NCBI GenBank assembly: GCA_009778675.1
Contig: WRFU01000006.1
Coordinates: 1 to 40,079, forward strand
DNA length: 40,079 nucleotides
Direction of reading: 5' to 3'
From: Candidatus Saccharimonadota bacterium
Lineage (GTDB): Bacteria > Patescibacteriota > Saccharimonadia > Saccharimonadales > Saccharimonadaceae
The notes under the pieces were generated by a model, which saw nothing but the letters and a program-made list of their open reading frames with translations, made no database searches and had not been told where the DNA came from. Below, piece after piece: positions 1 to 25,705 of the stretch. Numbering within the stretch: position 1 is the stretch's first letter; each line of letters begins with the position of its first letter. Both the position numbers and the translations under genes were made by a program.

Positions 1-1728
1 AAGCCGTACATTGGTTGGCTGGTATTATTAATCGCGGCCATCAGCGTGCAGGTTTGGGCGACGCTGCAACTGCCGAATTACATGTCGCACATTGTGAACG
101 ATGGTATCGTTGGCGGCGACCAGAATCTAATTTGGCAAAAAGGTGTTCAGATGGTAATTATTACCATTGTCGGTGGTATTGCCATGGTGTTGGCCAGTTA
201 CTTGGCGTCACGTATTAGCACGGGTGTAGCACGCGATTTACGCAAAAACACATTCGATAAAATCGAAAGCTTTAGCTTAAACGAAATCAATCAGTTTTCC
301 ACTGCCAGTTTAATTACCCGTACAACCAACGATATTCAGCAGATTCAGCAGGTGTTATTCATGATGTTGCGTATGGTGCTAATGGCGCCGATTATGGCTG
401 GTGGGGCAATTATTGAAGCTTTAAACAGCGCACCGAACATGACCTGGATTATTGCGCTAAGCGTCGTGATATTATTTGTTATTATTATAATTCTACTGAT
501 TGTGGCTTTGCCAAAGTTTACAATGCTGCAAAAATTAATTGACCGACTAAATCTAGTAACGCGTGAAAATCTAACTGGGCTTAGGGTCATTCGCGCCTTT
601 AATAACGAAAAGTACGAAGAAGACAAGTTTGGCACAGCTAACCAAGATTTGATGAAAGTTAACTTGTTTGTGAACCGGGTCATGGTGATAATGATGCCGC
701 TGATGACATTCATTTTTAACCTAACCACGCTGCTGATTATCTGGGTTGGTGCGCACTTGATTGCCGATGGCAACCTAGCGATTGGTAATATGATGGCCTT
801 CATGCAATACGCTATTCAGGTAATTATGTCGTTCCTAATGATTTCGATGGTCTTTATATTGTTGCCGCGCGCTCAAGTATCGGCCAAGCGTATTGTAGAA
901 GTGCTAGAGACTAAACTGTCAATTAAGCCGGCCGCTAAGCCGAAAACACCAAAAAACAATATGCATGGTGTGGTCGAATTTAAAGATGTGACATTCGCCT
1001 ACCCCGATGCTGATACGCCGGTGTTAAAAGGTATTTCATTTAAGTCGTTGCCTGGGCAGGTTACAGCGTTTATCGGCAGCACTGGTAGCGGTAAATCAAC
1101 TTTAATAAACTTAATCCCGCGGTTTTATGACGTAACTAAAGGCGCCGTGCTAGTAAATGGTGTAGACGTGCGTGATTTAAGCGCCAAGGTTTTAATGGGT
1201 AAAATTGGCTACATACCACAAAAAGGCGTGCTGTTTAGCGGCACGGTTAAAGATAACATTAATTATGGTAGTAACAAGGCCGATAGTAAACAAGTCCACG
1301 CCGCGGCCAAAGTAGCTCAGGCTTACAATTTTATCGAAAAGTTAGACGGCAAGTTTGATGCCCATATTGCCCAAGGTGGTCAAAATGTTAGTGGTGGCCA
1401 AAAGCAACGCTTAAGCATTGCCCGCGCTATTGCGCGTGATCCAGAAATTTATATTTTTGATGATAGTTTTAGCGCCCTAGATTTTAAGACCGACCGAGCC
1501 TTGCGCGAGGCACTAAAGCCAGTCACCAAAAATGCCGCAACGCTAATTGTAGCTCAACGTATTAGCACTATCGAAGACGCCGATCAGATTATTGTACTAA
1601 ACGAGGGTAAAATGGTGGGGCTTGGCACACACCAAGAATTAATGAAAACTTGCAAAGTTTACCAAGAAATTGCCCGCAGTCAGCTAAGCGAAGCTGAAAT
1701 CAAAAAGAGCTTGAAAGGTAAGAAATAA
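1..1728 (+). CDS. ABC exporter half-transporter, degenerate-site subunit (5' partial)
   Basis: This is a fused membrane-plus-ATPase subunit of a multidrug-type ABC exporter. The reading frame is open to base 1, so the gene begins upstream of the window and the GTG at 46 is internal. Several membrane helices occupy roughly the first 300 codons. The ATPase domain follows, with Walker A GSTGSGKST (1075-1101) and signature VSGGQ (1387-1401). The catalytic glutamate after Walker B is aspartate (IFDDS, codon 1462), and the H-loop histidine is glutamine (IVAQR). That combination is known from the degenerate half of heterodimeric exporters such as TM287/TM288. The next gene starts within its stop codon (TAATG), so the two are translationally coupled and probably heterodimerise. 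The substrate cannot be read from sequence. Confidence 0.95.
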   Translation, partial: KPYIGWLVLLIAAISVQVWATLQLPNYMSHIVNDGIVGGDQNLIWQKGVQMVIITIVGGIAMVLASYLASRISTGVARDLRKNTFDKIESFSLNEINQFSTASLITRTTNDIQQIQQVLFMMLRMVLMAPIMAGGAIIEALNSAPNMTWIIALSVVILFVIIIILLIVALPKFTMLQKLIDRLNLVTRENLTGLRVIRAFNNEKYEEDKFGTANQDLMKVNLFVNRVMVIMMPLMTFIFNLTTLLIIWVGAHLIADGNLAIGNMMAFMQYAIQVIMSFLMISMVFILLPRAQVSAKRIVEVLETKLSIKPAAKPKTPKNNMHGVVEFKDVTFAYPDADTPVLKGISFKSLPGQVTAFIGSTGSGKSTLINLIPRFYDVTKGAVLVNGVDVRDLSAKVLMGKIGYIPQKGVLFSGTVKDNINYGSNKADSKQVHAAAKVAQAYNFIEKLDGKFDAHIAQGGQNVSGGQKQRLSIARAIARDPEIYIFDDSFSALDFKTDRALREALKPVTKNAATLIVAQRISTIEDADQIIVLNEGKMVGLGTHQELMKTCKVYQEIARSQLSEAEIKKSLKGKK

Positions 1729-4467: not shown

Positions 4468-5205
4468 CTACGAGGCTGAGTCGTGTTTTGGTGGGGTTAT
4501 GTTGTACTTTTTTAGCTCTTTGTCGAGCAATTCACGAAACTTGGTGTCGTCGCTCCAAACATCGCTGCTAACCTCTTTGCCATTCAAATAAAAGCTAGGT
4601 GTACCCTGCAGATTGAACTTTTTAGCCGTAGCAGCATCAAAATTAAGTTTTTGGTCAATCCGCTTTTTAGTCGCATCGCCCGTGACATCTTTTTTAAGTT
4701 GATTCTTGTTGACACCCACCGTAGCAGCCAGGTTATATATATCATTCAACCGGTTATCAATACTACTCGAAATCCAAGTTTCTTGGTGTTCATACAGCGC
4801 ATCGTGCATTTTCCAAAAGACATCATTACCCTGTAAACTAGCTGCGATAGCAACAGTTGCAGCTGTCAAGGCATTAGGGTGCAGGCTAGGAATAGGATAA
4901 TTGCGGAACACAAACGCCACCTCGTCTTTATATTCTATACTCAAAGCATGAATTCGCGGGTAGGCATAGGCACAAGCACTGCACTCGTAATCGCCATATT
5001 CGATCAGCACCACTTTACTATCTTGTTTGCCATTCACCGAATCACCAATTTGACCATTTTGGGCACTAGGTCCAATAATTTTACCAATGTTTACATTTGA
5101 TATGTCTACTTTGGTCGCTTTGGGCGCTGCGACGTTAAAACCTACAATCACCGCCACAAATACGGCACAAACTAAACCAAAAATAATCCAAGTTTTCTTT
5201 CCCAT
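4468..5205 (-). CDS. membrane-anchored DsbA-like thiol oxidoreductase
   Basis: A 245-residue protein with one N-terminal membrane anchor (residues 5-25) and an extracytoplasmic thioredoxin-fold domain of the DsbA/Thioredoxin_4 type. The active site is GDYECSACAY (Cys75, Cys78). A cis-proline loop GTPSF lies near residue 205. It probably forms or shuffles disulfides in exported proteins, several of which in this window carry cysteine pairs. The start at 5205 is set by an extended -10 box (TGT TACAAT) ending 8 bases upstream. It is divergent from the CBS-domain gene; the two promoters lie back to back in a 52-bp gap. No VKOR or DsbB partner is seen nearby. Confidence 0.92.
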   Translation of the reverse strand: MGKKTWIIFGLVCAVFVAVIVGFNVAAPKATKVDISNVNIGKIIGPSAQNGQIGDSVNGKQDSKVVLIEYGDYECSACAYAYPRIHALSIEYKDEVAFVFRNYPIPSLHPNALTAATVAIAASLQGNDVFWKMHDALYEHQETWISSSIDNRLNDIYNLAATVGVNKNQLKKDVTGDATKKRIDQKLNFDAATAKKFNLQGTPSFYLNGKEVSSDVWSDDTKFRELLDKELKKYNITPPKHDSAS

Positions 5206-5221: not shown

Positions 5222-5242
5222 CAAAACTCTTAGCCTCATTTG

Positions 5243-5251
5243 TGGTACAAT
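5243..5251 (+). promoter_or_regulatory. extended -10 promoter of the CBS-domain gene
   Basis: TGG TACAAT ending 7 bases before ATG 5258. A leaderless mRNA is predicted. Confidence 0.65.
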
Positions 5252-5257
5252 ACCCAT

Positions 5258-6253
5258 ATGGTTTATGTGCTAATTCTAATTTATATTGTGATGGTAATTG
5301 TTTTTGGCGCTCGCCCTTTGCGTAGCAGTATGAGCCAGTTCGAACTAGAACGCCGAGCTAAAAAAGGCAATAAATCGGCTGCTGATATTTTAGCGCGCGA
5401 ACAACTACTGCCAGATGTTATGGTCCTAAGAAACCTTAAATTGGCACTGCTGACCATTTTATTTGTTTGCTTAGCTTATGTAGCCTACGATTTTGTAATG
5501 GCGCTACTACTAACTGGTTTGGTTTGGCTGTCGCTAGAGCCAATCAACAAAATTGGTATAGTCAAACAGTCGGTAAATAAGCTCTACCAAAGGGTTGAAC
5601 CGACAATCCTAAAGTACGTTGCCAAAGTTACCCCAGTGTTTAAATTCTTTCACACCGTCGGCCGGGAACTAGTGCCAAAGGTTGGCTCGAAAGAAGAATT
5701 AGCCGAAATCGTAGCTAATTTAGATGCCGAAGTTATACCAGTTTTAGAGCAAACGGCCTTATTGGAATTATTAGATTCTAGCGACAAACAGGTTAAGGAT
5801 ATTATGATACCAGCTAAACAAATTGAAACTGTTAAGGCCGATGAGTTGCTCGGGCCACTAGTGCTAGACAAACTGCATGGTACGGGGTTTTCGTGTTTTC
5901 CGGTGACAGACAAAGATATCAATCACGTGGTGGGTGTGCTTAATATCAAAGATTTGCTCGATCTTGATAGCAAAAAATCGGTCAAAGCCAAAACAGCTAT
6001 GGTAGGGGTGGTGCATTTTATCAGCCAAGATTATTCACTAGCCCGGGCTTTAAGTGCGGCTATAGACAACAATGCCCAATTTATGGTGGTGATTGACGAA
6101 AACCGTAAAACCACCGGATTACTGACGTTGCGCGATATTGTGACTGGCATTTTGGGCAAAGACATACTTAAAATAGACATCGATGATGACGAGCTAGTGG
6201 TAAGCAGTACCAACAAAACCTACAATAGCCCACCCGGCGGGGTAGACCTCTAG
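5258..6253 (+). CDS. CNNM/CorC-like membrane protein with CBS pair
   Basis: A 331-residue protein. The N-terminus has a hydrophobic helix (2-18) and a second hydrophobic stretch of one or two helices (about 63-98), simpler than a full DUF21 domain. A linker follows, then two tandem CBS motifs (about residues 180-235 and 245-300; KDIMIPAKQIETV, FPVTDKD, VGVLNIKDLL, FMVVIDENRKTTGLLTLRDIV). CBS pairs bind adenine nucleotides and regulate attached domains; CNNM/CorC proteins are linked to magnesium or sodium transport. The start is placed at 5258, not the GTG or ATG further upstream, because the -10 box ends at 5251. It is unclear whether the reduced membrane part transports anything. Confidence 0.8.
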   Translation: MVYVLILIYIVMVIVFGARPLRSSMSQFELERRAKKGNKSAADILAREQLLPDVMVLRNLKLALLTILFVCLAYVAYDFVMALLLTGLVWLSLEPINKIGIVKQSVNKLYQRVEPTILKYVAKVTPVFKFFHTVGRELVPKVGSKEELAEIVANLDAEVIPVLEQTALLELLDSSDKQVKDIMIPAKQIETVKADELLGPLVLDKLHGTGFSCFPVTDKDINHVVGVLNIKDLLDLDSKKSVKAKTAMVGVVHFISQDYSLARALSAAIDNNAQFMVVIDENRKTTGLLTLRDIVTGILGKDILKIDIDDDELVVSSTNKTYNSPPGGVDL

Positions 6254-7138: not shown

Positions 7139-7160
7139 CTTATCAAATGTCAAAGGCGAG

Positions 7161-7184
7161 CCGCCCCTATGGGGCGGTTTTGCT
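7161..7184 (+). terminator. intrinsic terminator
   Basis: CCGCCCC (7161-7167) and GGGGCGG (7171-7177) around TAT, followed by TTTTGCTTTT. A strong terminator directly ahead of the aspS promoter. Confidence 0.85.
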
Positions 7185-7188
7185 TTTG

Positions 7189-7197
7189 TGCTATAAT
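7189..7197 (+). promoter_or_regulatory. extended -10 promoter of aspS
   Basis: TGC TATAAT (7189-7197), ending 10 bases before ATG 7207. The T-rich tail of the upstream terminator runs into this promoter. Confidence 0.65.
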
Positions 7198-7206
7198 ATT
7201 ACAGAT

Positions 7207-8520
7207 ATGAATAGTGAAAGAACTCTAATTCGAGATTTACCAAAAAATACTAACAAAACTGCCACCATTTATGGCTGGCTGCATAAAAAGCGCTTGCTGG
7301 GCGGGCTGAACTTTATAACGGTGCGCGACCGCAGCGGTGTGGCGCAAAGTTTAATTGAAAATAAAGCTGAGCTAGAAAAACTCCGCGGCCTGCAAATTGG
7401 CACGGTGGTAGAATTTATTGGTAAGGTGGTAAAAGACGACCGCGCACCAAATGGCGTAGAACTGCACGATGTTAAAGTTGAAGTTCTATCGCCAGTCACG
7501 GATGAACCGCCGATCGAAATCGACAAACCAATCAGCCACCAGTCTGAACATCTAGACACGCTATTTGAAAATCGTGTACTAAATGTGCGTAACCTGCAAG
7601 AACAAAAGATCTTCTTGATCCGCAGTGCAGTGGTGCAATATTTGCGTGAGTTTTTATTACAAAATGAATTTACCGAAATCGACACACCTAAGCTACTAGC
7701 CGAAGCTACCGAAGGCGGTTCTGAAGTTTTTCAGCTAGACTATTTTGGCAAAACCGCTACTTTAGCCCAAAGTCCGCAGTTCTATAAGCAAATCATGGTT
7801 GGGGCTTACGAGCGAGTGTTCGAAATAAACCATGCTTACCGGGCCGAGCCAAGCGCTACTACCCGCCACCTAACTGAATGTACAATGCTAGATTTAGAAA
7901 TGGGCTTTTGCGACCATGCGCAGGTACGCCAAATGGTCGGCGATGGCGTAAAGTATGTGCTAACCAAACTTTATAAAGTTTTTGCCCATGAACTAAAAAG
8001 TTTTAATGCCCCAGAATTAAGATTGACAGATGAAATCCCGGCTTTTAGCATTGCTAAGATCCACGAAATGTATACAAAAGCTACTAAAATCGATACCACC
8101 CAAGAAAAAGATTTAATCCCAGACGAAGAGAAATTTATTTGCGACTATGCCAGAAAACAATTTGGTAGCGACTTAGTTTATGCCACAGACTTTCCGTTAG
8201 AAGCCGCTAAATTTTATCATAAAATCGATGCCGAAAAAGCCGTTACTATGTGGGCCGACTTATTATTCCGCGGTGTCGAAATTGCCACGGTGCCAATGCG
8301 CGAGCATAATTACACTAAACTAGTCGAACAAATGAAAGCCGCTGGCCTAAACCCTAATGACTCAGGCTTCAAGTATTATTTGCAAGCTTTTAAATATGGC
8401 TTACCACCGCACGGGGGCTGTGGTTTGGGTGTTGATCGTTTAACCCAAAAAGCCATTGGCCTGAATAACATTAAAGAAGCTACGTTATTCCCACGCGACT
8501 TAAACAGGCTAGCGCCATGA
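7207..8520 (+). CDS. aspS: aspartate--tRNA ligase, archaeal type
   Basis: A 437-residue class II aminoacyl-tRNA synthetase that charges tRNA with aspartate. An N-terminal OB-fold anticodon domain (about 1-100) is followed by the catalytic domain. That domain contains ATEGGSEVF, LAQSPQFYKQ, motif 2 around FRAE-like AYRAEPSATTRHL, and motif 3 GLGVDRLTQKAIG near the C-terminus. There is no GAD insertion, so this is the short archaeal/eukaryal type rather than the roughly 590-residue bacterial type. Such enzymes are often non-discriminating and charge tRNA-Asn for later amidation, but this is inference. The start is at 7207 (MNSERTL), because the longer frame runs back through the promoter and terminator. 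Its TGA overlaps the next ATG. Confidence 0.95.
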   Translation: MNSERTLIRDLPKNTNKTATIYGWLHKKRLLGGLNFITVRDRSGVAQSLIENKAELEKLRGLQIGTVVEFIGKVVKDDRAPNGVELHDVKVEVLSPVTDEPPIEIDKPISHQSEHLDTLFENRVLNVRNLQEQKIFLIRSAVVQYLREFLLQNEFTEIDTPKLLAEATEGGSEVFQLDYFGKTATLAQSPQFYKQIMVGAYERVFEINHAYRAEPSATTRHLTECTMLDLEMGFCDHAQVRQMVGDGVKYVLTKLYKVFAHELKSFNAPELRLTDEIPAFSIAKIHEMYTKATKIDTTQEKDLIPDEEKFICDYARKQFGSDLVYATDFPLEAAKFYHKIDAEKAVTMWADLLFRGVEIATVPMREHNYTKLVEQMKAAGLNPNDSGFKYYLQAFKYGLPPHGGCGLGVDRLTQKAIGLNNIKEATLFPRDLNRLAP

Positions 8521-11773: not shown

Positions 11774-14134
11774 CTAATATCCACAAATAGCCGTATATAC
11801 CACAACCCCACTATACACACCAGCTGGTGCAGCTAGGTCTGCCCTAGCACCAAAATAGATATTAAAGTTGTCATCTAGTTCAGTAGCAGTTGAAGTCTGA
11901 CGAATGATGAGTGGTGCAGTCTGTATAGGTACAGCGGCAAACTTAGCAGTCAGGCCAGGCACTGGTGCAGTGTAGCTAGTATCAAAACCATTGCCAGCAA
12001 TAGCATCAGTACTGTTCATGGCAAAACCCCAAGTGTTAATGTTGGTGGCGTCAAAAGCCGCTGGGTTGGTTAAACTACCAGTGATTGGGTTTAGGTAGTG
12101 GCCATTACCGTCACTGAGTCGGTTATCTGTACCTTGCATAGCAATAGATAAGTTGTAACCATTTGCGTCATTAGTCGTAACCGTCAGGTTATTGGTAGTA
12201 CTACCCATCGGGTTAGAGGCCGGGTTTAAGTTAATTGTGACATCCGAAGCAGCAGCCAGAGTTAAGTAAGTAGGGGCAACACCATAGAATGTAACATTAC
12301 CCTGCTCGGTGCTAGTGGTTGGCGTCCAAGGCTGAGTGGGGAAAGACACCAAGGTGGTGCTATCTTGCTCGCCACAGTCAGGTGTAGGATTAGCTACACT
12401 GCAAGACGTACCGTCTGTAGTGTACCAGCTGTAGTTAGCGTAGGTGCCAGTGGGAGCATCGATAGAACGATCAGTGGCATCATAGGTTGGGACGACTTGA
12501 CTGGCGGTGGTAGCGTTAACTGTGGGATAAATGTTTGGTGTGCCAGTAGAGCTGATCTTGGTGGAATAAGGCCCAGCAAAAGTTGCTACCGTGCCAACAG
12601 CTGCACCACCGACCTTGAAAGTAGCAGTACGGCGAGCATAAGAAGAGAAAGTGAAGTAGAACATGGTGCTAAAAATAGTCCCCTTACTGGTGTTTATGCC
12701 AGAGAATAATCCGGTTGGGATAGTGCCAGCTGTGGAGTTGTAGGCATAGCCATTGAAAGTGTAGTAGAACATGGAGTCAAAACTTGTGCCCTGGCTGGTA
12801 TTTAGGTGGTCGAACAGACCAGTTGGGATGGTAGCGACAGTGGAGTAAAAGGCATAGTAATAAAAAGTGCCATCAAACATACCACCAAAATTAGTCCCGT
12901 GGCTAGTGCCTAGGCTATCAAATAATCCGGCTGGGATTGTAGCGGCTGCGGAGTTATAGGCATAGTAATTGAAAGTGTCGTAGAACATGCAGTAAAAATT
13001 TGTTCCCTTACTGGTATTTAGGTGGTCGAACAGACCGGCTGGGATTGTAGCGGCTGCGGAGTTATAGGCATAGTAATTGAAAGTGTCGTAGAACATAGAG
13101 TCAAAACTTGTGCCCTGGCTGGTATCTAGATGATCGAACAGGCTAGCTGGGATAGTGGCGGTGGTAGAGTTGTGGGCATAGTCATAGAAAGTGGAGTAGA
13201 ACATGGAGTCAAAACTTGTGCCCTGGCTGGTATCGATAGAGTCGAACAGACCGGCTGGGATTGTAGCGGCTGCGGAGTTATAGGCATAGTAATAGAAAGC
13301 GGTGCTGAACATGGAGTCAAAACTTGTGCCCTGGCTGGTATCGATAGAGTCAAACAGGCCGGCTGGGATGGTGGCAGTGGTGGAGTTACGGGCATAGGAA
13401 GAAAAAGTTCTATGAAACATATAGCTAAAATTAGTGCTACCAGTGGTTAAAACGTTAGCAAATAAGTTAGCCGGGATTTCAGTGCCGTTATAAGCACCAT
13501 AGAATATAAAGGCGAAACGGTAGGCAGCACCTTGGGTACGCATTAAGTTAGTAAATGGTGTATCAATAGATTTAAACATGTACTTATTAGCAGAAGTATT
13601 AGCATCAGAATTATTATTGGTAAATCCGAAGGCATTAAACCAGCCGGTTGTAGCAGTACTAGGCCGAATGGTGATTTGATATTGACCCGCTGTGACATAG
13701 GTATGAGGGATACCACTAGTGATAGTACTGGTGTTACTACTACAAATTAAATTATTACCAGATTCAACGCCAAGACCAGTACAAGTTTGCGGTGCAGAAC
13801 CATCACCCCAGTCGATGATCCAGCTGTAAGCCCAAGTAGGAACTGTTATGCCATTATAACCAACGTAACCGCTCGTTGGTATCGAGAACGTGGTAGCTGT
13901 ACTATCATAATGTGTCGGATCGGTATCAAGCGTATTAGTCATGCGAGTGTCAATCGTAAACGCAAAACATTCCGGGTTATCCGCGCAGGCAGTGATAGTT
14001 GATGGATCGGCTGCCATGATAGCATCGGCAGCTGGTGGCAACAACAAAAAGTGCGCGATTGCAATAACCGTTGGTATAAAAACTACACTAGCAACCCAAA
14101 TAGTAAAAATGTTTATTTTTTTAGAGATACGCAA
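11774..14134 (-). CDS. surface protein with DUF285/BspA-like tandem repeats
   Basis: A 786-residue exported protein. The N-terminal signal/anchor (about 8-32) is followed by a PKD-like segment with IDWGDG and HTYVTAGQYQITI, typical of DUF285/BspA-like proteins. Residues about 225-505 hold seven complete 36-residue repeats and a partial eighth, of pattern FDxxxTSxGTxFxxMFxxTFxxYAxNSxxATIPxGL. The C-terminal region is Thr/Asn-rich and ends in a beta-sandwich-like module (APAGVYSGVVVYTAICGY). No LPxTG signal is present, so attachment is unclear. The start is TTG 14134, 7 bases after a TAAAAT box. It is likely an adhesin or host-contact protein; this is inference from the family. Confidence 0.85.
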   Translation of the reverse strand: MRISKKINIFTIWVASVVFIPTVIAIAHFLLLPPAADAIMAADPSTITACADNPECFAFTIDTRMTNTLDTDPTHYDSTATTFSIPTSGYVGYNGITVPTWAYSWIIDWGDGSAPQTCTGLGVESGNNLICSSNTSTITSGIPHTYVTAGQYQITIRPSTATTGWFNAFGFTNNNSDANTSANKYMFKSIDTPFTNLMRTQGAAYRFAFIFYGAYNGTEIPANLFANVLTTGSTNFSYMFHRTFSSYARNSTTATIPAGLFDSIDTSQGTSFDSMFSTAFYYYAYNSAAATIPAGLFDSIDTSQGTSFDSMFYSTFYDYAHNSTTATIPASLFDHLDTSQGTSFDSMFYDTFNYYAYNSAAATIPAGLFDHLNTSKGTNFYCMFYDTFNYYAYNSAAATIPAGLFDSLGTSHGTNFGGMFDGTFYYYAFYSTVATIPTGLFDHLNTSQGTSFDSMFYYTFNGYAYNSTAGTIPTGLFSGINTSKGTIFSTMFYFTFSSYARRTATFKVGGAAVGTVATFAGPYSTKISSTGTPNIYPTVNATTASQVVPTYDATDRSIDAPTGTYANYSWYTTDGTSCSVANPTPDCGEQDSTTLVSFPTQPWTPTTSTEQGNVTFYGVAPTYLTLAAASDVTINLNPASNPMGSTTNNLTVTTNDANGYNLSIAMQGTDNRLSDGNGHYLNPITGSLTNPAAFDATNINTWGFAMNSTDAIAGNGFDTSYTAPVPGLTAKFAAVPIQTAPLIIRQTSTATELDDNFNIYFGARADLAAPAGVYSGVVVYTAICGY
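12626..13462 (-). repeat. coding tandem repeat, 108-bp unit
   Basis: Seven exact-length 108-bp units (phenylalanine codons ending at 13462, 13354, 13246, 13138, 13030, 12922, 12814) and a partial eighth starting at 12706. Neighbouring units are nearly identical over long stretches, a substrate for slippage or recombination that would change repeat number by whole 36-residue steps. Confidence 0.9.
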
Positions 14135-14140
14135 AATGGT

Positions 14141-14146
14141 ATTTTA
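14141..14146 (-). promoter_or_regulatory. -10 box of the repeat surface protein
   Basis: Minus-strand TAAAAT, ending 7 bases before TTG 14134. Upstream at 14181-14212 are two direct copies of TACTTAATAA, 22 bp apart. Confidence 0.45.
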
Positions 14147-14180
14147 TGCTTCTCTCGCAATTTATTTTTTATTTTTACTC

Positions 14181-14212
14181 TACTTAATAAGTATTGTACC
14201 TATACTTAATAA
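14181..14212. repeat. direct repeat upstream of surface gene
   Basis: TACTTAATAA at 14181-14190 and again at 14203-14212, two helical turns apart. The first is part of the palindrome TACTTAATAAGTA. A regulator binding site is possible. Confidence 0.4.
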
Positions 14213-14319
14213 AAATACAAGCATTTTTTCAGTTTTCTTTTTGCTCATCTAGAAAACTTGACCTGTACCAATACCTTTTAGCATATCTGTGGCGCCATTA
14301 CCTACCAAAAATACCTAGA

Positions 14320-14342
14320 TTCGTTGTAATATATACAACGAA
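14320..14342. promoter_or_regulatory. perfect 9-bp dyad, candidate operator
   Basis: TTCGTTGTA, ATATA spacer, TACAACGAA. The A/T spacer and lack of a T-run argue for a protein binding site rather than a terminator. It lies about 100 bp upstream of the 14420 promoter. Confidence 0.5.
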
Positions 14343-14419
14343 CTAGCGTAAACTATTGCTACAGAGGTAGTTTATGTGTTAACATAAGCATATCGACGCC
14401 CAAGTAGGGGTAGTTAGTC

Positions 14420-14448
14420 TTGACTCTTTTTACCTGGCTTGTTATACT
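14420..14448 (+). promoter_or_regulatory. strong sigma-70-type promoter of small transcript
   Basis: TTGACT (14420-14425), 17-bp spacer, TATACT (14443-14448) with an upstream TGT. The transcript should start near 14455. Confidence 0.75.
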
Positions 14449-14524
14449 GTTCTTTGGCTTTTGTACACCGGTAGGGCTTACGAGCCTTACCGACACAAGA
14501 GCTGTGTGTTTAAAGGGAGAAACC

Positions 14525-14617
14525 ATGCCAATAGCAGTCAGTTTTGCTCCGTCACGGAGCAAAAAGATCGCAGTGGACGTGGTGCCTGCTCAGTGGCAAA
14601 CCTATATTGAGCATTAA
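14525..14617 (+). CDS. 30-residue small protein
   Basis: ATG 14525 has AAAGGGAG ending 6 bases upstream, one of the best ribosome sites in the window. The product begins MPIAVSFAPSRSKK and ends QTYIEH. It is slightly basic in the middle and has no membrane helix. A perfect 10-bp hairpin covers codons 6-14. It is unrecognised and could be a leader peptide or a free-standing small protein. It lies inside the autonomous transcript 14455-14692. Confidence 0.55.
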   Translation: MPIAVSFAPSRSKKIAVDVVPAQWQTYIEH

Positions 14618-14661
14618 ACCTGCTCACGTGCTAGTTTACTAGAACGTGACTAAATAATTCT

Positions 14662-14692
14662 AAAACCAACCCCAGGCACCGGGGTTGGTTTT
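14662..14692. terminator. strong intrinsic terminator, bidirectional
   Basis: AAAACCAACCCC (14662-14673) and GGGGTTGGTTTT (14681-14692) form a perfect 12-bp stem with a 7-base loop, with A-run and T-run at the base. Confidence 0.92.
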
Positions 14693-14744
14693 GCGTTTAG
14701 AGTAACCGAGGTTAGTTTTATTTTATTGTAGACTGTCAAAGCAC

Positions 14745-14773
14745 TTGCATTTTGTTTAGAACCTAGGTATCCT
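14745..14773 (+). promoter_or_regulatory. promoter of the IPNTG surface protein
   Basis: TTGCAT (14745-14750), 17-bp spacer, TATCCT (14768-14773). It gives a leader of about 42 nt containing GAGGGGGA. Confidence 0.55.
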
Positions 14774-14821
14774 CGACAATAAGAGTGATAAATATAAATA
14801 AATCGTGAGGGGGATTTGATT

Positions 14822-16813
14822 GTGCGTATTGGGTTAAGAATGGGCCAAAAACCGGTAGTAAAATTTGTATTGATTTTTTGTGCCATTGTGGCGGTAACAG
14901 GTGGCTCGTGGTTTGCGGTCAAACATGTTTTTGCTGCTAGCTACAATTTCTCAGATGTTGGCGCTATAACTTCGTTCCAAGTTAAAAATAGTGCCGGTAC
15001 GGTGTTAAATAGTACAACTGGGGTCGGATTTGCTAGTACGATGGTATTCACTTACGATATTAGCGGCGCGATTAACTCTAGCACATTATCCGCATTGCAA
15101 CCTGGTGATCAAATTATTATCACTATAGATTATGACCCAAATTCGACCTATCGGATGTCGACTTTAAACTACAACCCTAATTTAAATGACACTGCTGGTA
15201 TCACGCAGTTTAATGTTAGTACTAGTGACCAGAATATTATTCTAACTAAAACAGCTGCCCCCATTGGCAATAGCTTTTCATTTAATCTAGCCTCGTCTCA
15301 GGCAAGCGTTTCGTATATTGCGGCTAACTGGCAAGCGCTCTACTCGTCAGTCTGGATCGATGGCTTTCAGGGCCAAACAGTAACTTTTCCTAATAGCGCC
15401 AAAACATCATCACTTGAAAATAATCTTTGCCTTAATACTGGCCTATCGGCTAATGGGATCGGCAATGTATCTATAAGACCCTTGACTCTTACGACCCAGA
15501 TCTATAATAACTTGCTGGCTGGCCAAAATATCCAAACGCTTTATGCTAATTTGGCCAGTACCGACTATATCGTTGTTATGACACTAAACGCCAATAATCA
15601 AATCCGAAATATTACCGGTGGGAATACTCCAACTATGGTTTATGACATGATGCCATCTGGTACGCAGCTTAGCAGTGGTTTTGCTGTTGGGGTGCCGCCA
15701 TACTTTTCATTTAATCAAGTTACCATCGCACCTGATCTAAGCACCAGTGCTGTTTATACTGCACTGGCTACTAGTGGTAAGGGCGCATACGGTATTGTTA
15801 AGAATTCCAATGACAGCTATACGCTAGCTGTTAATTACGGCAAAATAATTGGTGATACCGCGGTAGCATATCCTAACACAAATGTAGCGGCAACAATGCC
15901 TAATACTACCGCTAACAACCAAATTCTGGCAAATTTGACGCAGCAGGCTGTTAATATGAATCTAGCTGCTATGCGATTTTATACCACTTTTGGGATAAGT
16001 TTCTATGACCCAGACGTCGTGAATACTGCGACATTTAGTTTTACGAATAATTTATTATCCACCTGCGGTTCAACAACTGTCACTTACAATAGCCAGGCTG
16101 TCAGCAATACGGCCGAAGGTTCATCGCAAATCGTCACACACTATTTAGATACGGCTGGCAATCCGATCGCTAGTCCGACTCATCAGCATGGCTACGCAGC
16201 TGCTGATGCACCAAGTGGTTACACGGGTAGTACTAGCGCCAATGTAGTGCCGGCCGATGTGGATAGCTATAGCTTAATAACTGATTCGGATCAATTGAAC
16301 ACTATTGCAAGTGATGTCGGTATTGTTAATAACGGCACAACATCGCAAGTCTTGGCCACTAGTGCGACTTTAGACTTCCCAACAATTAGTAGTGGCAGCA
16401 TAGTAGCGGCCTATTATTTTTACGAGCCAACACCAATAATGTTAACAGAGTCAACACCTATGACAATTACCTTTAATAGCAATGGTGGCAGCAGTGTGCC
16501 GACTCAAACTATTGAATATAACACACCGGCTAGCAGACCGATTGACCCAACCCGTGCCGGTTATACTTTTGATCATTGGTATATTTGCAGCGATCCCACC
16601 CAGGCCGAATATGACTTTACCACGCCGATTGCTGATGACACACAGCTTTGCGCTAGTTGGACAGCTGTGTCGCTAGCAAAAATTGTGCCTGGTATCCCAA
16701 ATACTGGCACTGCTGCAATGCCGATTTTTACAACCACAGCGATTTTGGCCAGCACCTTGCCAGTGGTTGGTATTGTTCTAATCATAAAAAAGCGGGTATC
16801 TAGGCAAAACTAG
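14822..16813 (+). CDS. sortase-type surface protein with InlB B-repeat
   Basis: A 663-residue exported protein. A signal peptide (about 8-38, ending VFAAS) leads into a long Thr/Ser/Asn-rich beta region (about 40-430). A MucBP-like segment (IVTHYLDTAGNPIA, about 440-540) is followed by a Listeria-Bacteroides InlB B-repeat (ITFNSNGGSSVPTQ to WTAV, about 545-615). The C-terminus is a cell-wall sorting signal: IPNTG, a membrane helix, then KKRVSRQN. A sortase should cleave IPNTG and attach the protein to the wall; no sortase gene is in this window. The start is GTG 14822, because GAGGGGGA lies 8 bases upstream while TTG 14816 is too close. Confidence 0.9.
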   Translation: MRIGLRMGQKPVVKFVLIFCAIVAVTGGSWFAVKHVFAASYNFSDVGAITSFQVKNSAGTVLNSTTGVGFASTMVFTYDISGAINSSTLSALQPGDQIIITIDYDPNSTYRMSTLNYNPNLNDTAGITQFNVSTSDQNIILTKTAAPIGNSFSFNLASSQASVSYIAANWQALYSSVWIDGFQGQTVTFPNSAKTSSLENNLCLNTGLSANGIGNVSIRPLTLTTQIYNNLLAGQNIQTLYANLASTDYIVVMTLNANNQIRNITGGNTPTMVYDMMPSGTQLSSGFAVGVPPYFSFNQVTIAPDLSTSAVYTALATSGKGAYGIVKNSNDSYTLAVNYGKIIGDTAVAYPNTNVAATMPNTTANNQILANLTQQAVNMNLAAMRFYTTFGISFYDPDVVNTATFSFTNNLLSTCGSTTVTYNSQAVSNTAEGSSQIVTHYLDTAGNPIASPTHQHGYAAADAPSGYTGSTSANVVPADVDSYSLITDSDQLNTIASDVGIVNNGTTSQVLATSATLDFPTISSGSIVAAYYFYEPTPIMLTESTPMTITFNSNGGSSVPTQTIEYNTPASRPIDPTRAGYTFDHWYICSDPTQAEYDFTTPIADDTQLCASWTAVSLAKIVPGIPNTGTAAMPIFTTTAILASTLPVVGIVLIIKKRVSRQN

Positions 16814-19698: not shown

Positions 19699-19774
19699 TG
19701 GTGGGGATGGTTGGGATCGAACCAACGACCAACCGGTTATGAGCCGGCTGCTCTAACCCCTGAGCTACATCCCC
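19699..19774 (-). tRNA. tRNA with CAU anticodon, probably tRNA-Ile2
   Basis: A 76-nt cloverleaf with 7-bp acceptor GGGGATG/CATCCCC, loop CTCATAA (anticodon CAU), TTCGATC T-loop, discriminator A and encoded CCA. The TGGTC variable region and the anticodon arm resemble tRNA-Ile2, whose C34 is changed to lysidine by TilS to read AUA; elongator Met is the alternative. A TATACT box lies upstream on the minus strand (19787-19792). Confidence 0.93.
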
Positions 19775-20304: not shown

Positions 20305-20381
20305 CGCGGGGTAGAGCAGCCCGGTAGCTCGCTTGGCTCATAACCAAGAGGTCGTTGGTTCAAATCCAACCCCCGCTACCA
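20305..20381 (+). tRNA. initiator tRNA-fMet (CAU)
   Basis: A 77-nt cloverleaf with encoded CCA, very close to E. coli tRNA-fMet, including the D-loop AGCCCGGTA and T-arm TTCAAAT. Position 1-72 is a C-U mismatch (E. coli C-A), the hallmark of initiators. The anticodon stem is CTTGG/CCAAG, so only two of the usual three consecutive G-C pairs remain (29-41 is T-A). Possible promoter TTGCAA-17-TAATAT at 20256-20284. Confidence 0.96.
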
Positions 20382-25628: not shown

Positions 25629-25705
25629 TGGTAGCACCGGCAAGGTTTGAACTTGCGACCTCAGGCTTATGAGTCCTGCGCTCTAACCAACTGAGCTACG
25701 GTGCC
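25629..25705 (-). tRNA. tRNA with CAU anticodon, probably elongator tRNA-Met
   Basis: A 77-nt cloverleaf with encoded CCA. The acceptor is GGCACCG/CGGTGCT with a G-U first pair, so it is not an initiator. The loop CTCATAA gives CAU, and the T-loop is TTCAAAC. The AGGTC variable region and GCTACCA end resemble Gram-positive elongator tRNA-Met. An A-G mismatch closes the anticodon stem (31-39). Ile2 is the alternative. Confidence 0.93.

Follow-up and report, generated by a model that had tools for sequence, protein, structure and literature searches.

Is the compact array of expression signals and hairpins at positions 14420–14692 of this DNA a gene, and, if so, does it matter as a protein, as an RNA or as both? 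We addressed this question in a stretch of 40,079 nucleotides (the window) from a member of the Saccharibacteria, bacteria that depend on hosts and have very small genomes in which many genes are unassigned. An earlier note had placed within these coordinates a promoter, a 5' hairpin, a ribosome site, an ORF containing a hairpin, and linker and terminator-like hairpins, and each of them was confirmed from the sequence (Table 1).

Table 1. Features of the microgene and of its usual neighbors, in window coordinates
Feature	Position	Strand	Basis or detail
Extended -10 sigma-70-type promoter	14420–14448	+	TTGACT (14420–14425), 17-nt spacer, TATACT (14443–14448), TG upstream of -10; 10 of 12 promoter matches
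5'-terminal hairpin, 9 bp + 10 bp, UACG loop	14456–14503	+	Predicted fold; outer 9-bp stem spans 14456–14503, inner 10-bp hairpin CGGUAGGGCU-UACG-AGCCUUACCG at 14469–14492
Shine-Dalgarno AAAGGGAG	14512–14519	+	Sequence; relatives have AAGGAG in the equivalent place
30-codon ORF MPIAVSFAPSRSKKIAVDVVPAQWQTYIEH	14525–14617	+	ATG 14525, TAA 14617; in-frame pN/pS
Helix P0, 14522–14530 (start-codon region) with codons 17–20 (14574–14583), H1 inside	14522–14583	+	MFE
In-ORF hairpin H1, ORF 10–15/42–47 and 19–26/32–39	14534–14571	+	Comparative evidence
ORF hairpin UUUUGCUCCG-UCA-CGGAGCAAAA	14542–14564	+	Read from window sequence
GGUGCCU, proposed pseudoknot strand, complement of terminator loop	14581–14587	+	
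In-ORF hairpin H2, UGCU-CAGU-GGCA in window	14587–14598	+	Covariation at ORF 63,74
Linker hairpin, sequence not conserved	14624–14649	+	Sequence and fold
Terminator-like hairpin, loop AGGCACC at 14674–14680	14662–14692	+	Fold and relatives; 12-bp stem AAAACCAACCCC-AGGCACC-GGGGUUGGUUUU
DsbA-like gene	4468–5205		
CBS gene	5240–6253		
Class II tRNA synthetase	7147–8520		

Single promoter-like or hairpin-like sites are unremarkable here (the promoter-like site alone is no rarer in the sequence than in shuffles, with a shuffle mean of 2.4), but the combined fold is remarkable: the 247-nt RNA reaches -98.9 kcal/mol, compared with -68.5 ± 4.6 for dinucleotide shuffles (z = -6.6, 0/200). In related loci, TTGA(C/T)N-16..18-TANNNT-like sites lie upstream in 88 of 99 cases, against 6.3 in shuffles. 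The U tract 3' of the + strand terminator stem is short (UUUUGCG), and a scanner called a terminator on the - strand only; almost every relative has an equivalent hairpin after the ORF, mostly with a better U tract. Judged by this and the further comparison with relatives given below, which settles the matter for us, the array is a gene and not a product of chance.

The earlier note had recognized no known RNA family, and Rfam likewise gave no match at the gathering cut-off and chance-level matches only at permissive thresholds; a search for tmRNA or tRNA at the locus found none. For the peptide, Pfam and NCBIfam profiles gave no match, the best PHROGs hit (E = 0.043) was not accepted, and a sequence-profile search of solved structures in the PDB gave no match (best E = 0.34). 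No description of the microgene was found in the open-access literature.

Distribution and coding constraint of the microprotein

A blastn search against 60 relatives recovered the ORF in 16 same-family genomes, with most matches ending near its start and stop, and a profile built from the peptides found in this way matches 148 of 394 genomes in the Saccharibacteria family to which the window belongs, spread over 46 of 61 genera and, with rare exceptions, at one copy per genome. The same profile matches 80 named loci, and the titles that name a group all name Saccharibacteria/Saccharimonadia/TM7 or Patescibacteria. A broader profile gives full-length matches in further families of the order, at least 15 of them, and in a sample of 287 genomes from the phylum it gives none outside the order. 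The gene is also carried by the genome of TM7i, a cultivated Saccharibacterium (CP075337.1, locus L135). The peptide (consensus MPIAIEFVPSRRKKIAVDVVPAEWQLYIAH) is 29–31 residues long, or 27 in one genus; M1 and W24 are its only residues that are invariant throughout the order, with R11 and V17 nearly so. The large genus g2 (loci L198, L199 and L157) carries a 27-codon homologue, for example MRIKKAKRSEEHKAKIAPAEWQQFIEI, that the profile searches mostly missed.

The ratio pN/pS is 0.29 in frame, compared with 1.2 and 2.0 in the other two frames, and together with this conservation it supports translation of the ORF. The peptide is charged throughout and lacks a hydrophobic stretch of membrane length. 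From these comparisons we take it that Saccharibacteria have a stand-alone gene for a conserved non-membrane microprotein of 30 residues, a widespread and core-like gene overlooked as too short for routine gene calling. A type I toxin–antitoxin system would call for a small hydrophobic membrane peptide, which the charged product is not; a simple scan, which is a weak test, found no antisense promoter at 14100–14900. The earlier suggestion of an antitoxin-like protein found no support, as the gene is single copy, has no recurring partner gene beside it and matches no family.

An AlphaFold model of the peptide has a strand-strand-helix arrangement at low confidence (mean pLDDT 66, pTM 0.22), which makes it too weak for a fold search. 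RNA binding would be in keeping with the basic SR(R/S)KK turn, and a putative self-regulation by the microprotein is a natural, possible extension of that idea.

A second short ORF, of 19 codons (MPIQVKSxSRAYKVxVRVV), was seen in loci L182–L195, L197 and L201 (for example, L184 2021–2080), directly 3' of the end of an RsmH-like gene (NPRARSAKLR..) and 5' of a gene starting MTYSSS. Most of the order's other families have this ORF, which the window's family almost entirely lacks, and the product resembles residues 1–20 of the 30-residue peptide.

RNA structure within and around the reading frame

Two checks proposed by the earlier note were peptide conservation and compensatory stem changes in relatives; the former is described above, and the latter were found both in the 5' hairpin and in base pairs of the ORF. 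In relatives, the predicted transcript opens with a 9-bp stem in which eight of nine pairs are doubly changed (58 doubly changed cells, compared with 17 in shuffles; the observed values were reached by 0 of 500 shuffles). The stem is 88% paired, against at most 58% when the partners are slid, and sliding abolishes the signal. Its loop carries UAAAGGUCGA, nearly invariant and found once per genome where sought. This motif is missing from the window, whose 5' hairpin is unrelated in sequence to that of the relatives; the place of the hairpin is conserved and its sequence is not. The idea of a regulon sharing a 5' motif was rejected: none of the 11 genomes tried has more than one copy of the 13-mer TTTAAAGGTCGAA, and that copy is at the microgene.

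Within the ORF, corrected mutual information over all column pairs of 96 distinct gapless ORFs gave 12-45, 25-33, 24-34 and 63-74 as the four strongest couplings, the last three of which are base pairs of helices also proposed by RNAalifold. At positions 25 and 33, where a codon base of Pro9/Ser9 faces the synonymous third base (G or A) of Arg11, the 96 ORFs have C-G 47 times, U-A 37 times, U-G 10 times and C-A never (Fisher 5e-17); these counts come from related, mostly metagenome-assembled genomes. On an independent tree built from the neighboring DsbA and CBS proteins, about 19 changes fall on base 25; in 11.2 of 13 supported independent pairs, base 33 changes the same way, the opposite direction never being taken (p about 0.001), a test that lessens the effect of kinship and does not remove it. 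The pair 63-74 (U-A 81, C-G 12) ties a synonymous base of Pro21 to Gln25 or Arg25, with few independent changes (2/5); its helix, H2, reads UGCC-GAAU-GGCA in relatives and is weak in the window, with low pairing probability. Bases 12 and 45 (window 14536 and 14569) are both synonymous third bases that stand opposed within H1 and are almost always non-Watson-Crick (C-A 36, A-C 32, U-U 14; independent-pair p about 0.01), a coupling that we interpret as a conserved mismatch within the helix.

In locus L100 the peptide has changed from SRRKK to SVSEE, and the hairpin is retained as GCUCAC-UCG-GUGAGU through changes in both arms. ORFs of the window's family fold better than their synonymous versions (mean z = -1.65, n = 32; -2.8 for the window's own), whereas distant families have no consistent excess of ORF structure, which indicates that the fold is not required for the protein everywhere. 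Because the excess stability is found in the window's family and on the whole not in distant ones, the RNA fold seems to be younger than the protein. In the window's family, the covariation and folding comparisons indicate that the mRNA itself is under selection to fold, with coding letters compensated, a clean natural case of one sequence under selection for protein and RNA fold together.

The structure also appears to join the ORF to the end of the message. GGUGCC in codons 19–21 is complementary to GGCACC of the terminator loop; 94 loci have the two sequences, 23 lack the two, and four are discordant, among them L079 (a near-hairpin that the script missed) and L081 (which retains five of six pairs). 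Locus L009 retains GGUGCC without the loop. Among synonymous versions of the window ORF drawn by codon usage, GGUGCC would be expected in 6.6% and GGUGCCU in 1.2%, and the codons GUG GUG CCU GCC (19–22) are used in 85–98% of loci, compared with 20–26% in neighboring genes. Most complete genomes have a single copy of the terminator-loop motif, and extra matches are not hairpins, which rules out AGGCACC as a general terminator loop of these genomes and makes it specific to this locus. Pairing of the ORF with the terminator loop as a pseudoknot is thus supported at the sequence level; with both strands nearly invariant, the support consists of complementarity and joint loss, the latter partly through shared descent. 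This match makes a specific claim on the control of very short mRNAs.

A further helix may occlude the start codon. In relatives, CAC-AU at the start codon can pair with AUGUG of codons 18–19, with the pairs present in 87–100% of loci, and the helix shows no covariation because its ORF side is frozen. In the window's minimum-free-energy fold, the register is shifted relative to that of relatives (A1-U56, U2-G55, G3-C54; CCAUG/CGUGG), and the start codon is paired with a predicted probability of 1.0. A C stands at -1 in 98 of 99 loci and at -3 in 88 of 99, in an A-rich leader with 11% C.

Possible workings of the folded message

The reading that we favor, with a probability of about 0.6, is that the mRNA of the microprotein governs its own translation and stability in cis through its fold. 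The message would be protected by being closed at one end by the 5' hairpin and at the other by the terminator-loop pseudoknot, and the helix joining the start codon to codons 18–19, with H1 enclosed, would keep translation down. Because this helix and the pseudoknot both use two bases, G57-G58, a completed terminator could compete with the helix and open the start codon. We can imagine, though we think it unlikely, a co-transcriptional switch in which codons 18–19 lock the start codon until the terminator loop captures codons 19–21 and opens it; the order of these steps is speculation. If such a switch were real, only the complete message would be translated, and one stretch of RNA would be read as protein and also serve a conserved tertiary fold.

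Autoregulated ribosomal-protein mRNAs offer a parallel, as they combine a structured leader and start-codon occlusion with a small basic product. The microgene has these in common with them (occlusion being predicted here), but its structure continues across the ORF as far as the terminator loop, and the peptide matches no ribosomal protein.

A doubtful alternative that nonetheless keeps some weight is that the fold serves message stability only, the 5' hairpin and the pseudoknotted 3' end guarding a very short mRNA with no control of translation. It would account for a hairpin that starts at the predicted 5' end, for structure along the whole RNA and for a start-codon helix that does not covary, but the cytosines at -1 and -3 of a C-poor leader and the re-registering of the helix in the window point to start-codon pairing too.

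We hold it improbable that the locus encodes a dual-function RNA that base-pairs in trans, with the unpaired 5'-loop UAAAGGUCGA or the GGCACC loop as its seed and the microprotein as a second product. The gene's own promoter and terminator-like hairpin, its conserved unpaired motifs and a structure conserved beyond coding needs are what such an RNA might have, yet GGCACC already has its complement in the same RNA and is lost jointly with that ORF partner, and the 5' motif is absent from the window. SR1 of Bacillus subtilis, which encodes SR1P, base-pairs with other mRNAs (PMC8501984, PMC8152036); it is likewise transcribed on its own as a small RNA, codes for a short protein and functions at the RNA level, whereas the best-supported pairing of the microgene lies within the transcript and partly within the ORF. 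VcdRP of Vibrio cholerae, a short RNA that combines a 29-residue protein with an RNA function and acts on other transcripts (PMC8672173), encodes a protein of similar size, but it belongs to another lineage.

We give little credence to the idea that the RNA covariation is an artefact of common descent and codon usage and that the microprotein alone matters. The loci are indeed related, and shuffles do not preserve relatedness, but the directional changes repeat on the independent tree, two synonymous sites (12 and 45) covary, slid controls lose the signal, the ORFs are more stable than synonymous versions and L100 retains its hairpin despite the change in its peptide.

Genomic setting

The usual gene order is an MFS-type transporter and/or a CorA-like gene, the microgene, a convergent DsbA-like thioredoxin gene, a CBS-domain gene and a tRNA synthetase gene of class II (Asp/Asn/Lys type), where the transporter names rest on sequence resemblance and the other three on Pfam matches of the window copies. 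Attenuator peptide leaders have a short ORF with hairpins and a terminator after it, a layout that the microgene has in common with them but mostly without a same-strand downstream gene. That the ORF is a transcription-attenuation leader peptide for a downstream gene, as the earlier note had entertained, fits the short ORF with its following terminator and the co-directional next gene in the window, but has almost no probability. In about 110 of 121 related loci the gene that comes next is convergent, which leaves nothing there to attenuate; the ORF has no run of regulatory codons, and the peptide is strongly conserved over its whole length.

The placement between two adhesin-type genes, which the earlier note had also pointed out, is true of the window and peculiar to its genome: here the DsbA-like, CBS and synthetase genes stay together, and the microgene lies about 9 kb off between two surface-protein genes. 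Because the usual neighbors sit together at that distance, we read its position as a relocation in the window's lineage. The move is informative, because the terminator loop is still AGGCACC although the convergent DsbA partner is gone. Near the microgene, window positions 11774–14134 on the - strand encode a 786-residue protein that has no Pfam match and contains several internal repeats (ATIPAGLFD...GTSFDSMF) that are nearly identical. Elsewhere in the window, three tRNA genes with the anticodon CAU lie within 6 kb, at 19699–19774, 20305–20381 and 25629–25705.
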